A stretch of DNA of 25,721 nt, taken from a virus. A model generated the notes under the pieces. The model was not told the origin of the DNA, made no database searches, and saw nothing but the letters and a program-made list of their open reading frames with translations. Location of the stretch: the IMG/VR virus record IMGVR_UViG_3300021440_000109, positions 1-25,721 of that record. One strand, written 5' to 3'. A program made the translations under genes and the position numbers. Shown here one piece after another: positions 21,009 through 25,721 of this stretch (position 1 is its first letter; every line of letters starts with the position of its first letter).

Positions 21009-21412
21009 AAATTCTATTGGTATTTATGTCTGCTGATATGTATTCACATGATATGAGTTTACAAAAAACATTTGTAGCTCGTAATGCCTTTGACGAGGGG
21101 CAAATGGGTGGCTACATTAATCAATACAAAGAGCACTTCGACACTAAACATGTCGCTAAACTAGTCCTAACTGTTGTCCAACTGGACGAGGAAACTGGTG
21201 CAATTACACCGTTTAATAGTGAAGTGATGGTTCACCCAAAGAAAGAGAAAATCATCATCAATAAACAGAAGCCTGTTACAGGGCGTAATAGTAGGCTTTC
21301 TCAACCAAACCCTATTCCCGCTGATATTTTCTTGTCAGGCTATAACTGGAACCCCGTACAAAGCACATTCTCCGTGGGTACCAGCGATCTAGTCGAGGCC
21401 CCAGCAGAATGA
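21005..21412 (+). CDS. Hypothetical early protein, 135 residues
   Basis: This protein opens MKILLVFMSADMYSHDMSLQ, then shows alpha/beta alternation (AKLVLTVVQLDEETGAITPF) and a proline-rich C-terminal part (LSQPNPIPADIFLSGYNWNP). No signal peptide cleavage pattern is clear and no catalytic motif is seen. It overlaps the previous and following genes as ATGA, so it belongs to the same translationally coupled run as the hydrolase at 21803. Confidence 0.65.
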   Translation: MKILLVFMSADMYSHDMSLQKTFVARNAFDEGQMGGYINQYKEHFDTKHVAKLVLTVVQLDEETGAITPFNSEVMVHPKKEKIIINKQKPVTGRNSRLSQPNPIPADIFLSGYNWNPVQSTFSVGTSDLVEAPAE

Positions 21413-21801
21413 TTGATCTATTCTTTAAAAGCAAGAAAGAACCCCCTGTCTACCCACACACTCCGTTATGGAAAACGGAGAATTATGGGGAGCAGTGGCA
21501 CGCTGAGAAAGCGGGTCTATCAATTGAGGAATACCGCTCAAGGGTTAAAATTGTCGCTATGGCTTATGCTCAATGTAAGTGGAAGCAAGGTGACTCTGGT
21601 TACCCTTACTCAGAGGAAGCTATGGAAGAACACGGTCAGTGCCGTGTTGTCGGTGTTGTTGCTCACTACAATCAATATGGTAATGTAGAGTGGAACAATC
21701 CCCCATACATCCTGTCTGTTAGGCCAGCCAAAGCCCCTAACACCACGGTCAATTGTACAGCGGGTTGGTTACAAGCCCATGAACCTACGAAAGCTTGTTA
21801 A
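21409..21801 (+). CDS. Hypothetical early protein, 130 residues
   Basis: The product has YGEQWHAEKAGLSIEEYRSR (26-45), then AYAQCKWKQGDSGYPYSEEA and a beta-rich RVVGVVAHYNQYGNVEWNNP stretch, and ends with a Cys. The order helix, then glycine-rich, then strands suggests a compact globular domain. It ends two bases before the start of the class I amidotransferase-like gene, so co-translation is likely. Function unknown; it may be a partner of the amide-metabolism genes, but that rests on position only. Confidence 0.65.
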   Translation: MIDLFFKSKKEPPVYPHTPLWKTENYGEQWHAEKAGLSIEEYRSRVKIVAMAYAQCKWKQGDSGYPYSEEAMEEHGQCRVVGVVAHYNQYGNVEWNNPPYILSVRPAKAPNTTVNCTAGWLQAHEPTKAC

Positions 21802-21802
21802 T

Positions 21803-22480
21803 ATGAAAAAGTTAGTTTTGGGCTATTGCCCACAAGGTAATGGAACATCCATTGCTCCGTTTGATCGTGTCTTTGGTGCCAAACAAGACATTAGTAAAAG
21901 CATTGAGGGTGTGGATGCTGTTGTCTTTTGGGGTGGTACAGACATCCATCCATCCCTCTACAAAGAGAAGCCACACAAACGCTCTCAATGTCTGTTCTCT
22001 ACGCCATCGTCTAGGGATATATTTGAGTGGAATGCCATGAAGTATTGCCTCACTAACAACATCCCCATGATTGGGGTATGTCGTGGTGCGCAGATGCTTT
22101 GTGCTTTTGCTGGTGGCCGGTTGATTCAGGATTGTGATGGGCACGTTGGGGGTTCAGGTGGAGGCCACCCCATTACAGTATTGAATGGCCCCATTGGCAC
22201 AAAGAACATCTATGCTACATCATGCCACCATCAGATGATGTATCCGTTTGATGTCCCACATGAAATGTTGGGTTGGTCCTCTGTACACCAAAGCTCTAGG
22301 TATGAGAATGCCGAGGGGTTGGTTAATATGGATGGTAAAGTTGAGCCTGAGATTGTCTATTTTCCAGACATCAAAGGCTTTGCTATTCAGGGGCATCCAG
22401 AGTGGGCAGAGAACACACCGTTTGCCGATCATTGCAACAAACTCATCAACGAGTTATTCTTTCAAACTATAGAGGTTTAA
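21803..22480 (+). CDS. Class I glutamine amidotransferase-like / C26 gamma-glutamyl hydrolase
   Basis: The 225-residue protein has the class I amidotransferase fold. AVVFWGGTDIHPSLY (39-53) supplies the oxyanion glycines, IGVCRGAQMLCAFAGG (90-105) holds the nucleophile C93 in the elbow motif, CHHQM (141-145) is the usual post-nucleophile His segment of the C26 subgroup, and IQGHPEW (195-201) gives H198 and E200, completing the triad. The CRG.Q...A..GG and HHQ order is that of PuuD-type gamma-glutamyl hydrolases rather than synthase-linked domains. It probably cleaves a gamma-glutamyl amide or releases ammonia from glutamine. The ATG lies one base after the previous stop with no strong ribosome site. 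Amidoligases follow 0.9 kb downstream. Confidence 0.88.
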   Translation: MKKLVLGYCPQGNGTSIAPFDRVFGAKQDISKSIEGVDAVVFWGGTDIHPSLYKEKPHKRSQCLFSTPSSRDIFEWNAMKYCLTNNIPMIGVCRGAQMLCAFAGGRLIQDCDGHVGGSGGGHPITVLNGPIGTKNIYATSCHHQMMYPFDVPHEMLGWSSVHQSSRYENAEGLVNMDGKVEPEIVYFPDIKGFAIQGHPEWAENTPFADHCNKLINELFFQTIEV

Positions 22481-22481
22481 T

Positions 22482-22781
22482 ATGAAAACACCACACACAC
22501 ATGCTGCTCTAATTAAGGCATGGGCAGATGGAGCAACCATTCAAATTAGTATGGACGGTGGAGGGGGTGTCCCAGTTTGGTACGACCTTATCAGTCCTTG
22601 TTGGTCTGCTGCGGTAGATAGATACCGAATCAAACCAGAGCCAAAGCCAGATATCGTGGTGTATCGAAAGGTACAAATGGATGGTGCACATGTAATCAAC
22701 TCGAACGCAAAACATTACAATGTAGAGTACATTTTTGACGGAACAACTCGTGAACTTAAATCAGTAAGGATGCTACCATGA
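22482..22781 (+). CDS. Small conserved phage protein, function unknown
   Basis: This 99-residue protein opens KTPHTHAALIKAWADGATIQ (2-21) and later has YRIKPEPKPDIVVYRKVQMD. The H-x-x-x-I-K-A-W-A-D-G-x-x-I-Q ... Y-R-I-K-P-E-P-K-P pattern is one I recall from many phage hypothetical proteins, often annotated without function. It begins one base after the amidotransferase stop and overlaps the next gene as ATGA. A role in the surrounding pathway is possible only by context. Confidence 0.7.
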   Translation: MKTPHTHAALIKAWADGATIQISMDGGGGVPVWYDLISPCWSAAVDRYRIKPEPKPDIVVYRKVQMDGAHVINSNAKHYNVEYIFDGTTRELKSVRMLP

Positions 22782-22975
22782 TTAGAACACCCCCACAACA
22801 TAACACAATCAATCCCCCCGGACAAATTATTAACCGTGGTATTGGTATTGATGTTTACCTCATTATGGAAACAACAAAATGCTCACGCTCTGATGCACAA
22901 CGTGTATTGGATTTGATGCATAAAGACAACCTCTCATTGGGAGAAGCTGCTCGTACTATTGGAGTAATCAAATGA
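22778..22975 (+). CDS. 65-residue hypothetical protein
   Basis: The N-terminal half is rich in P, N and I (IRTPPQHNTINPPGQIINRG). The C-terminal half has two helices, SDAQRVLDLMHKDNLSLGEA and ARTIGVIK, which could be a small helix-turn-helix-like unit (SLGEAARTIGV). That reading is tentative. It overlaps both neighbours as ATGA. Confidence 0.55.
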   Translation: MIRTPPQHNTINPPGQIINRGIGIDVYLIMETTKCSRSDAQRVLDLMHKDNLSLGEAARTIGVIK

Positions 22976-23172
22976 AATTTGTATTTGGTATTATTGTTGG
23001 TGTCATTATGTCTGCCACTATGGCAGCTAATGCTGGTTGGCTTAGTAGTGGTATTGGTGGTGCCGTAGGCGCTCACATGGCTACTAGTGGTATCGAAGGT
23101 AAGGTTGATTCCATTAACTTTCGATTGGATGCCTTGACAAAGGCTATTGATGGTGTTAAAGTTTGTAAATAA
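22972..23172 (+). CDS. Small exported protein with signal peptide
   Basis: The 66-residue product has a typical signal peptide: KFVFGIIVGVIMSATMAANA (2-21) with A-N-A as the cleavage site before GW. The mature part is glycine-rich then helical (GKVDSINFRLDALTKAIDGV). It would be a periplasmic peptide of about 45 residues. It overlaps the previous gene as ATGA and GGAG precedes the ATG. An exported small protein beside amidoligases would fit a cell-envelope target, but that is inference. Confidence 0.65.
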   Translation: MKFVFGIIVGVIMSATMAANAGWLSSGIGGAVGAHMATSGIEGKVDSINFRLDALTKAIDGVKVCK

Positions 23173-23181
23173 AGGATACTT

Positions 23182-23382
23182 ATGTTTAAGAAAACTGTTG
23201 CTAAGGTAAATTGCTCTTGTACTACAGGTGACGCCGCTGCCTATCAAGACAAGGTGTATGGAAAAGGAGTGCGTGTGGCAAACCTGTCCACAAAATCTGT
23301 GAAGTCTGGTGTGTCTACTGTAGAGGTAGGATGCACGGTATGTAGTCGTAAACATACAGTTCAAGAATCTCGTTTGTCATAA
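23182..23382 (+). CDS. Small cysteine-pair protein, possible zinc ribbon
   Basis: This 66-residue protein has C11-x-C13 near the start and C51-x2-C54 (GCTVCSRKHT) near the end, with a basic middle (GKGVRVANLSTKSVKSGVST). Four cysteines in two pairs suggest a zinc-bound or disulfide-linked fold. AAAGGA before the ATG supports the start. It precedes the first amidoligase by nine bases. Function unknown. Confidence 0.6.
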   Translation: MFKKTVAKVNCSCTTGDAAAYQDKVYGKGVRVANLSTKSVKSGVSTVEVGCTVCSRKHTVQESRLS

Positions 23383-23391
23383 GGAGTTTAT

Positions 23392-24141
23392 ATGCGTTTA
23401 GGTTGCGACCCCGAAGTATTCCTCCTTAACAAGGAAGGAAAGCCAATCAGTTCTATTGGCTACATCAAGGCCGACAAGTATCATCCTTTGCAAATCCCAG
23501 ACATGCCGTCTGGATTTACACTACAAGAGGACAATGTTTCTCTTGAATATGGTATTCCCCCTGCTGCCAGTGCCGCAGAATTTATTGGGTCTATCAACGC
23601 CGTGATGAAGAAGTCTTTGGACTACTTGCCAGAACTGAGCTTTAGTAAGATGTCTTGTTTGATCTTTCCAGAAGATCAAATGCAACATCCACTAGCCCAC
23701 ATCTTCGGATGCGAACCTGACTATAACGCATGGACAGGTAAAGAGAACATCAAACCACTACCTCCACACGAGTATATGCGCTCTGCTGGTGGGCACGTAC
23801 ACGTTGAGACAACCCATGACCCCATTACCACAGTCCGCAGCATGGATCTTTATCTTGGTGTACCTAGTGTACTTATGGATACTGGTGAGGAGCGCCGGAA
23901 AATGTACGGAGGACCGGGAGCCCACCGAGTAAAACCATATGGTGTTGAATATCGAACACTCAGCAACTTCTGGATTTTTGAGGATCGTTTGATTCAGTGG
24001 GTGTGGGATAATACAGCCCGTGCTTTGGATAGTAATATTGATGTGGCTGCCTATTCCAACGAGATTATTAGCGCCATCTCAAACAACGACAAGAAACTAG
24101 CTCGTGAGTTGGTGGATTGTTTCCAACTGGAGGTTGTATGA
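23392..24141 (+). CDS. Amidoligase of the phage COOH-NH2 ligase type
   Basis: The 249-residue protein fits the glutamine-synthetase-like COOH-NH2 ligase superfamily, first seen in phage phiEco32-type genomes. LGCDPEVFLL (3-12) gives the conserved D-P-E, QEDNVSLEYGIPPA (45-58) holds E46, D47 and E52, the central AGGHVHVE (132-139) carries H135 and H137, and the MYGGPGAHRVKPYGVEYRTL segment (171-190) with E186 and R188, then SNFW, completes the active-site set. Such enzymes activate a carboxylate with ATP and form an amide with an amine. The length is near full for the family. AAGGAG before the ATG is a strong ribosome site; the end overlaps the next gene as ATGA. Confidence 0.88.
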   Translation: MRLGCDPEVFLLNKEGKPISSIGYIKADKYHPLQIPDMPSGFTLQEDNVSLEYGIPPAASAAEFIGSINAVMKKSLDYLPELSFSKMSCLIFPEDQMQHPLAHIFGCEPDYNAWTGKENIKPLPPHEYMRSAGGHVHVETTHDPITTVRSMDLYLGVPSVLMDTGEERRKMYGGPGAHRVKPYGVEYRTLSNFWIFEDRLIQWVWDNTARALDSNIDVAAYSNEIISAISNNDKKLARELVDCFQLEVV

Positions 24142-24734
24142 TTGCTGTACCGTCAACATGGCGGGATGTTAGTAAGTATTACGAGGGGACTTACATCAAG
24201 CTCCCAGAGTATGGGGACATGCTTTTCTTTGTACAACGTGTACGAGAGAGTATGATTACGGGTATCAATGAAGATGATACTGTCTTTGAGATTCATTTGA
24301 ATGAGAAGGCCCCCTTCCACCTAGACTACATCCTTCCACACAGGGCCGTGTTCCAGTTTGGACAAGATGCTGTTAGCCTACGACGTGTACCCGCACGGCA
24401 ATATCGCAGAGGACTGCATTCTGATAACACTAAGATTGTGTCTGTAACAAACGGTGAGGGATACCCCCTAAGTTTCGACCTTCTAAAAGCTTTTGTAAAT
24501 AAACAGAAGTATGTCCTGTTATCAGAGGCCCTTGAAGATCGTGGGACATTCCGTTCTGTAGCGTTGACATCGCGTATGTCATATGTTAGAGCGGGGCGTG
24601 AGTTGCGCATTGACAACACTACTGTAGCTGTAATTTCTAAGGCAGAGCGTATTATTAAAATGACACGCCCCATCTTCTCAAAAGAAATTAAGCAATACCT
24701 ACAGGACAATTCTCTGACCTATGGAGTTATCTAA
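24138..24734 (+). CDS. Unrecognised protein between the two amidoligases
   Basis: I chose the ATG at 24138, which overlaps the ligase stop as ATGA and has GGAGG six bases upstream; the frame is open upstream only inside the ligase gene. The 198-residue product is soluble with beta-rich parts (KLPEYGDMLFFVQRVRESMI; VFEIHLNEKAPFHLDYILPH) and a basic middle (LRRVPARQYRRGLHS). The second half (KIVSVTNGEGYPLSFDLLKA; RELRIDNTTVAVISKAERII) is alpha/beta. No known catalytic motif is visible. Its position, coupled between two ligases, implies a partner, carrier or substrate-binding role. Confidence 0.75.
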   Translation: MIAVPSTWRDVSKYYEGTYIKLPEYGDMLFFVQRVRESMITGINEDDTVFEIHLNEKAPFHLDYILPHRAVFQFGQDAVSLRRVPARQYRRGLHSDNTKIVSVTNGEGYPLSFDLLKAFVNKQKYVLLSEALEDRGTFRSVALTSRMSYVRAGRELRIDNTTVAVISKAERIIKMTRPIFSKEIKQYLQDNSLTYGVI

Positions 24735-25492
24735 TGATTTATAGTGACTTTAACCTGCTCCAGCCCCCTCACTTGGTGTCTGGGTCCACCCCTTTGTTTA
24801 TTGGGTGTGAGTTTGAGATTGAAGATATTGTTGATGCAACATCGATTACAGACCTTGTATCTACAACAACAGATGGTTCATTGCGCAATAATGGGTTGGA
24901 GTTCATTACACCACCCCTGACAGTGCCCTCTGCTATAGAGACTTTTAATGCTTTACATAAGAATTTAAAGTATGGCAAAGCACCCTTTACTGAGCGTACA
25001 TCAATCCATGTCCATGCAAATTGTTGTAACTTAACTCAACAAGAGGTAAAAAACATTATCTTGTTGTATGCTCTATATGAAGAGGCTTTCTTTATGATGA
25101 TTGATCCCTCACGCCGAGACAACATCCACTGTGTTGCCTTGACCGAGACACATCTTCCATCACTATACAGGGCACCAGTAGCAACATTAATTTCAAAGTG
25201 GCATAAGTATACTGCTCTGAACATCAAACCCCTATCTCAATTGGGTACTATTGAGTTCCGACATATGCACGGTCACAATGATCTTAAACTTTTCTCTGAG
25301 TGGGTAACCCTCATCGAGAATCTATTTAAGTTGGGTAGAAACTTTCATATCTCTGAAAAGGTTTTTGAGGAGGAAGCTTTAAAAACCATGTTCATGGATC
25401 TGTTCGGAGGAACGGGTCTATCAAAACATTGGCCAACTGTACGCGGTTTGATGGATAACCAAATCATTGATGTTAAGTTTTCAACTCTCTAG
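24734..25492 (+). CDS. Second amidoligase (Amidoligase_2 type)
   Basis: The 252-residue protein has IGCEFEIEDI (23-32) with E26, E28 and E30, DGSLRNNGLEFITPP (47-61) with D48 and E56, TSIHVHANC (89-97) with H92 and H94, and KYTALNIKPL ... TIEFRHMHG (158-180) with N163, E174 and R176. This order (E-F-E ... D-G-S-x-x-x-x-G-x-E-x-x-x-P ... H-V-H ... N ... I-E-F-R) is the signature of the putative amidoligase enzyme family. It shares the HVH and E..E logic with the upstream ligase but is a different subfamily, so the two are not tandem duplicates. GGAG lies seven bases before the ATG, which overlaps the previous stop by one base. Confidence 0.9.
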   Translation: MIYSDFNLLQPPHLVSGSTPLFIGCEFEIEDIVDATSITDLVSTTTDGSLRNNGLEFITPPLTVPSAIETFNALHKNLKYGKAPFTERTSIHVHANCCNLTQQEVKNIILLYALYEEAFFMMIDPSRRDNIHCVALTETHLPSLYRAPVATLISKWHKYTALNIKPLSQLGTIEFRHMHGHNDLKLFSEWVTLIENLFKLGRNFHISEKVFEEEALKTMFMDLFGGTGLSKHWPTVRGLMDNQIIDVKFSTL

Positions 25493-25500
25493 GAATTAAT

Positions 25501-25721
25501 ATGTGTGGTATTGTTGGTGCTATTATGAAGCCGGAAAACGGATTCTCTATTCAAGCAGAGAACTGTTTTTATCAAATGCTGGAAGCGGATACGTTTCGTG
25601 GGGATGACTCTACGGGGGTTATCTTTGTAAATAACGATACGTCTTTTGGCATTATGAAGGATGTATTTCCTGCTACGTATATTACGGATACGATTAAGTC
25701 CTCTGAGCAGGGTCGTCGTGC
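25501..25721 (+). CDS. Class II glutamine amidotransferase (N-terminus only)
   Basis: The first 73 residues are present and the gene runs off the right edge. It starts MCGIVGAIMK, so the initiator methionine would be removed to expose C2, the N-terminal nucleophile of class II (Ntn) amidotransferases like GlmS, PurF and AsnB. The TFRGDDSTGV segment (30-39) gives the conserved R-G-x-x-S-x-G that binds glutamine. Such domains hydrolyse glutamine and channel ammonia to a partner. Whether a synthetase domain follows in the same protein is not visible. AGGAAT before the ATG supports the start, nine bases after the ligase stop. Confidence 0.88.
   Translation, partial: MCGIVGAIMKPENGFSIQAENCFYQMLEADTFRGDDSTGVIFVNNDTSFGIMKDVFPATYITDTIKSSEQGRR

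Follow-up and report, generated by a model that had tools for sequence, protein, structure and literature searches.

A diverged member of the phage amidoligase cassette at the end of a virus record, with a possible role in altering a host envelope peptide

The window analysed here is the entire virus record IMGVR_UViG_3300021440_000109 (25721 bases), and its right edge is the end of that record. The four plus-strand genes at 23392-25721 almost certainly belong to the amidoligase (‘peptidoglycan modification’) cassette known from phages of the phiEco32/LUZ24/RIO-1 type, of which they form the left part, and their sequences show common descent with the cassettes already published. The same cassette is carried by PaP3/LUZ24, tf, phiEco32, 7-11, PA11, RIO-1 and CW02, and its gene order recurs in PaP3 (orf48-42), Alcaligenes phage QDWS535, Manatee Spring phage, E. 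coli phage Bas93, tf and HTN1. The novelty implied by the initial annotation of this DNA does not hold, as the cassette is already published and widely shared (PMC5498523, PMC11945000, PMC3890496); the window carries a diverged member of it and not a new kind. Our best overall explanation, held with slightly less than even confidence, is that the cassette remodels a host envelope peptide through a cytosolic amide or gamma-glutamyl pathway. The genes and open reading frames (ORFs) concerned are as follows.

21779..22480, plus strand: C26 gene, class I glutamine-amidotransferase-like/Peptidase C26 (PuuD-like), a predicted gamma-glutamyl hydrolase of 233 residues (PF07722, phrog_7218)
22482..23382, plus strand: four small ORFs (99, 65, 66 and 66 residues), outside the conserved set and absent between the C26 gene and ligase 1 in the nearest relatives
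23392..24141, plus strand: ligase 1, a phiEco32-like COOH-NH2 ligase type 2 (PF14395) of 249 residues (Pfam, PHROG, residues)
24138..24734, plus strand: middle protein of 198 residues, assigned to a cassette-specific family (PaP3 orf47/phrog_4877 group) from profiles and a fold model
24734..25492, plus strand: ligase 2, an Amidoligase_2 enzyme (PF12224) of 252 residues (Pfam, PHROG, residues)
25501..25721, plus strand: class II glutamine amidotransferase (GATase), N-terminal 73 residues with the Cys2 nucleophile, cut by the record end (phrog_4736)

The ORFs at 23392-25721 are co-directional and tightly packed, as the initial annotation had described. Ligase 1 and the middle gene share a 4-base ATGA overlap (24138-24141), ligase 2 begins with the final base of the stop codon before it (a 1-base TAATG overlap at 24734), and an 8-base gap (25493-25500) separates ligase 2 from the GATase gene. 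The best start of the middle ORF is the ATG at 24138, a purine-rich Shine-Dalgarno-like stretch stands before each of the four starts, and the minus-strand ORFs over the same interval look like shadows of the plus-strand genes. The cluster had been described as a set of four; those four genes are real, but the description was incomplete, since it missed the C26 gene and the set usually comprises five to seven genes.

The amidoligase family was reportedly described in 2009 by Iyer and colleagues. Profile searches agree that the two ligases of the window are different members of it: ligase 1 passes PF14395 (E = 1.9e-12, 47.4 bits against a cut-off of 25) and matches phrog_3815 (E = 2.9e-66), and ligase 2 passes PF12224 (E = 3.8e-11, 43.8 bits against a cut-off of 22) and matches phrog_7469 (E = 3.1e-31). 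We read residue conservation from alignments with relatives (83 for ligase 1, 82 for ligase 2, 84 for the GATase and 68 for the C26 protein). E52, H135, E186 and R188 of ligase 1 are kept in 83/83, H137 in 81/83 and E46 in 75/83, while E26, E28, D47, E56, H92, H94, E174 and R176 of ligase 2 are invariant (82/82). The catalytic residues first listed as intact are thus nearly all invariant among relatives, with one correction: the ‘D48’ named for ligase 2 is D47, and position 48 is Gly. Relatives of ligase 1 occur in 315 phage records, every one less than 60% identical, and the named hosts among the matches listed are Gram-negative bacteria. At the DNA level, phage records gave no close relative.

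The arrangement of the cassette was compared across 87 loci picked by similarity to ligase 1, so that the counts describe ligase 1 neighbourhoods only. The order ligase 1, middle protein, ligase 2, class II GATase, ATP-grasp is kept in 61/87 loci, and ligase 1, ligase 2, the GATase and the ATP-grasp gene are all present in 47/47 loci with ample flanks, meaning at least 5 kb on both sides of ligase 1. A second, rarer arrangement has the GATase before ligase 2 and no recognisable middle gene. Because 61 loci keep the order and the ratio of nonsynonymous to synonymous substitutions (dN/dS, from close pairs of relatives) is mostly well below 1 for each cassette gene, the cassette is not a chance grouping. 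In the nearest relatives (L002, L004 and L005), whose ligase 1 is 69-75% identical to that of the window, an ATP-grasp gene directly follows the GATase gene; it is also present in L012 and L088. These relatives and the well-flanked loci support the early guess that an ATP-grasp ligase lies just beyond the right edge. The best NCBIfam hits of the ATP-grasp proteins of relatives are glutamate and D-Ala-D-Ala ligases, and the protein is also assigned to the PHROG group ‘ribosomal protein S6 glutaminyl transferase’ and clears the cut-off of Pfam RimK. A scan of bacterial genomes from 84,980 species, made with close sequence patterns that would miss distant relatives, returned 4 loci, all on contigs of 4-26 kb from metagenome-assembled genomes. 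Since all four lie on such short contigs, they offer no chromosomal operon from which to borrow a function. A known anti-phage defence system was considered and rejected, as six cassette proteins gave no PADLOC profile match at E = 0.01.

The middle protein represents a cassette-specific family that is also found in PaP3 and in E. coli phages and is present in 65/87 ligase 1 loci. Profile comparison joins the window type to the PaP3 type (probability 95%, E = 1.8e-8), and the middle-protein profile picks up proteins of Bas93 (E = 2.9e-4; phrog_4877) and of the ZRK32 phage (E = 1.9e-5) as well. Its AlphaFold2 model is confident (predicted local distance difference test score, pLDDT, 94.8). Foldseek gave no PDB match to this model at E < 0.1, and a sequence search of the PDB likewise returned nothing; the clear named fold matches among viral models include proteins of CW02, Vp_R1 and RIO-1. 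With no PDB fold match and no assignable function, the label ‘coupling protein’ that was first given to this gene remains a guess. Where the middle gene is missing, the GATase or amidoligase is larger, and we asked whether the middle protein is fused to it; an hhalign comparison showed that it is not.

The last gene of the record had been called a class II GATase, and the profile matches bear this out. Its 73-residue fragment matches phrog_4736 (E = 2.9e-9) and is 53-58% identical to full-length relatives, one of which matches PF13522 (E = 2.4e-12). Cys2 is kept in 84/84 relatives, R33 in 81/84 and G34 in 80/84, and the full-length GATases of relatives keep Cys2, RG, GHxR, NG and the glutamine-binding Asp. 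In the model of a relative's enzyme, a GlmS/PurF-type glutaminase domain is joined by a low-confidence linker to a small C-terminal beta domain. In L004, whose GATase has 388 residues, glmS models match residues 1-234 only, and the C-terminal beta domain follows. No SIS, PRTase or AsnB domain match was found in the GATase of a relative. As modelled, the enzyme is best described as a GlmS/PurF-type glutaminase lacking a synthase domain, and would therefore have to supply a partner with ammonia, unless it works as EgtC does, by hydrolysing gamma-glutamyl compounds.

Some GATase genes of relatives have unusual starts. ATT, and not ATG, GTG or TTG, precedes the Cys codon in five of them (L012:3678-, L030:10625-, L051:2620-, L029:7839-, L054:10581-), most with a Shine-Dalgarno-like stretch upstream of the ATT, for example GAGGAGA...AAAATTTGTGG. 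Because the GATase Cys must be the second codon, this suggests that the rare ATT start codon is used repeatedly in cassette GATases. An AAT, TAT or GGT codon stands before the catalytic Cys in three further genes (L080:8793-, L086:9099-, L057:7187-), whose proteins may, like some PurF enzymes, lose an N-terminal propeptide that ends before the Cys. L053, L057, L059 and L078 have another class II GATase gene after ligase 2.

We count the C26 gene (21779-22480) as part of the cassette because it adjoins ligase 1 in the nearest relatives (directly before it in L002, L004 and L005), although in the window the four small ORFs intervene. The protein matches PF07722 (E = 3.8e-18) and phrog_7218 (E = 4.7e-27) and has the triad C101, H206 and E208 with a GVCRG elbow; H206 and E208 are kept in 68/68 relatives and C101 in 64/68. 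Its best NCBIfam match is gamma-glutamyl-CDP-amidate hydrolase (E = 3.8e-11, 43.5 bits against a cut-off of 250), it matches the gamma-glutamyl-GABA hydrolase model weakly (15.6 bits against a cut-off of 266), and it falls short of the equivalog-level score for any named enzyme in NCBIfam. Its PDB matches are PuuD/SpuA-like structures, including 7d4r-type ‘probable glutamine amidotransferase’ entries, which we take to be SpuA.

Other cassettes carry a gamma-glutamyl cyclotransferase (GGCT). The GGCT profile found no gene within the window, whose record ends before the ATP-grasp position; the window has the C26 gene instead, which most relatives also have. Of the 43 well-flanked loci, 24 carry C26 alone, 9 carry GGCT alone, 10 carry both and 0 carry neither (Fisher test for C26 against GGCT, p = 0.0002, uncorrected for descent). 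When whole records were searched, one C26-only record (G044) gained a GGCT, the other hit (W02) being already known to have both. No GGCT-only record proved to have C26, the single hit (L048) being a C26 gene outside its flank. Because no well-flanked locus has neither gene, we suggest that each cassette needs one gamma-glutamyl-removing enzyme, either C26 or GGCT.

The cassette as a whole is probably a gamma-glutamyl/amide pathway. Its enzymes have no strongly hydrophobic stretch and would work as soluble proteins in the cytosol. Each of the two ligases, like the ATP-grasp enzyme encoded downstream, would use ATP to activate a carboxylate and then join an amine to it. The class II GATase would split glutamine and hand ammonia (or the gamma-glutamyl unit) to one of the ligases, and C26 here, or GGCT in other phages, would remove or recycle the gamma-glutamyl group. 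The likeliest product would be a host envelope peptide altered by an amide or a gamma-glutamyl group, probably a peptidoglycan precursor in the cytosol, and the resulting change in the wall during infection might serve superinfection exclusion or lysis control. The set has been named a peptidoglycan modification cassette or module in two papers that both cite Hardies et al. 2013 (PMC5498523, PMC11945000). Cell-wall modification and superinfection exclusion have been proposed with reference to Iyer et al. 2009 (PMC10580990). The relation to the phage neighbourhoods of that study, drawn in the initial annotation, is supported.

That the target is peptidoglycan or another envelope component is nevertheless a tentative assignment, held with less than even confidence, and several points weigh against it. 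No sequence feature points to muramyl peptides specifically, the ATP-grasp protein is as near to MptN/RimK as to D-Ala-D-Ala ligase, and our searches of solved structures gave no relative for either of the two ligases or for the middle protein. The complementarity of C26 and GGCT follows the phage tree with about 3-5 changes and gains no support from an independent-pairs test; with so few changes along the tree, it is not statistically independent evidence. In the open literature, we found neither an experimental test of the cassette enzymes nor a measured substrate or product; the report on Phage-ZRK32 describes growth promotion and proposes a role in nitrogen metabolism instead (PMC10945688). 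A somewhat unlikely version of the pathway is an essentially phage-only line with a gamma-glutamyl intermediate, in which a middle protein of new fold serves as carrier or recognition factor for the substrate, the gamma-glutamyl group is taken off by either C26 or GGCT, and the product is a novel envelope modification or a new small molecule.

It is rather unlikely that the product has nothing to do with the envelope and is instead a small soluble metabolite, or else a free amino acid or polyamine that has been modified, such as a gamma-glutamylated signal, protectant or defence inhibitor. The gamma-glutamyl group would then serve as transient protection or as a nitrogen carrier, as it does in the biosynthesis of butirosin, polyamines (PuuA/PuuD) or phosphoramidates. 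The C26 matches to gamma-glutamyl-CDP-amidate hydrolase, weakly to gamma-glutamyl-GABA hydrolase and to SpuA-type structures fit this idea, as do the BtrG-like annotation of the phage tf GGCT, the lack of hydrophobic segments, and the fact that no well-flanked locus is without a gene for gamma-glutamyl handling. However, all of the matches to named enzymes fall far under the model cut-offs, and the flanks contain no recurrent carrier protein, kinase or transferase: the conserved neighbours that were tested are a primase, a helicase and proteins without an assigned function. Tagging of host or phage proteins with amino acids in the manner of RimK or CDC123, to seize host machinery, is improbable. 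The PHROG and Pfam RimK assignments of the ATP-grasp protein speak for it, and the middle protein might act as a substrate-recognition subunit, but RimK-type matches lie far below NCBIfam cut-offs and tagging leaves two GS/GCS-type ligases, a glutaminase and gamma-glutamyl hydrolases unexplained.

Class II GATases occur in phage archaeosine pathways, which would accord with an amide-linked hypermodification of phage DNA bases against restriction, a reading that we consider hardly likely at all. The cassette-bearing Gordonclarkvirinae of E. coli are reported to be remarkably resistant to restriction-modification, with no known pathway for it, but the same paper points to a dCTP deaminase/nucleotidyltransferase instead (PMC11990801), and a relative's GATase has no QueC domain, unlike the archaeosine-type gat-queC. 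DNA of the cassette-bearing Pseudomonas phage HTN1 (U17) is reported to be sensitive to 11/16 enzymes (PMC11945000), and by our site count its genome has sites for exactly 11/16, the identity of the 11 being inferred from the number. Phage tf DNA is cut by RsaI, HpaI, EcoRV, SmaI and HaeIII (PMC3517423). Because the sensitivity count of HTN1 equals its site count and tf DNA is cut by five enzymes, a restriction-blocking base modification is unlikely in these two phages. It is also very unlikely that the cassette feeds host nitrogen or amino-acid metabolism as a set of auxiliary metabolic genes, as claimed for Phage-ZRK32. That phage has a homologous cassette, and growth promotion and the proposed role are reported for it, but what can be seen of the report gives correlation and speculation, with no enzyme or deletion test (PMC10945688). 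Host growth brings lytic phages little gain, and two dedicated ligases in a conserved order suggest a defined product.

In the window, the cassette sits among plus-strand genes to the right of minus-strand genes at about 8-15.5 kb, whose products are a major head/protease-type protein, the portal, the large subunit of the terminase and an endonuclease VII. Directly before the C26 gene is an ORF of 130 residues (21409-21798) without a Pfam or PHROG family, which has relatives in 16 loci, mostly about 1.1 kb before ligase 1. One of the ORFs between the C26 gene and ligase 1 (22972-23172, 66 residues) has a hydrophobic, signal-peptide-like start. A family with a median length of 237 residues (L004:11730-12638 and related), unmatched in Pfam and PHROG, lies after the ATP-grasp gene or overlaps it in 28 loci and could be an additional member of the cassette.

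More than 300 sequenced phage records contain ligase 1 of this cassette, among them those of phages under study for therapeutic use. The product of the cassette, once known, would explain why lytic phages devote five to seven genes to amide chemistry. Sharper predictions come from the comparison: the glutaminase would stand alone, the gamma-glutamyl remover may be interchangeable, the conserved middle protein has a fold without a match, and a role in DNA modification is left little space. These predictions make the question of the product testable in cultured E. coli and Pseudomonas phages.

Among known cassettes, those of LUZ24/PaP3-like Pseudomonas phages (PaP3 orf48-42; HTN1 ABKQ52_47-53) match the window in how ligase 1, the middle protein, Amidoligase_2 and the class II GATase are ordered and oriented; the ATP-grasp and GGCT genes come after the GATase, and a primase and helicase are nearby. 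They differ in having GGCT and no C26 gene, and the PaP3-type proteins are distant in sequence (about 39% identity for ligase 1 and about 21% for the middle protein). The phiEco32-like E. coli phages (Bas93_0064-0073) likewise have the COOH.NH2 ligase, middle protein, amidoligase, GATase II, ATP-grasp and GGCT in the same order. In contrast to the window, Bas93 lacks C26, its GATase is larger (676 residues), and two genes without a known family precede ligase 1. The RIO-1/PSA-HP1 cassette shares the gamma-glutamyl amidoligase, second amidoligase, ATP-grasp and amidotransferase (PMC5498523) but includes a GGCT, whereas the window shows C26 and ends before the ATP-grasp position. At the level of single enzymes, the cassette GATase resembles GlmS and PurF in its glutaminase domain, with the N-terminal Cys nucleophile and the R-G, GHxR, NG and D residues, but has a C-terminal beta domain of about 100 residues in place of a SIS or PRTase domain. 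The C26 protein shares the Cys-His-Glu triad and GxCRG elbow with PuuD/SpuA and gamma-glutamyl-CDP-amidate hydrolase, but lies so far below the equivalog cut-offs that their substrates are not transferable to it.

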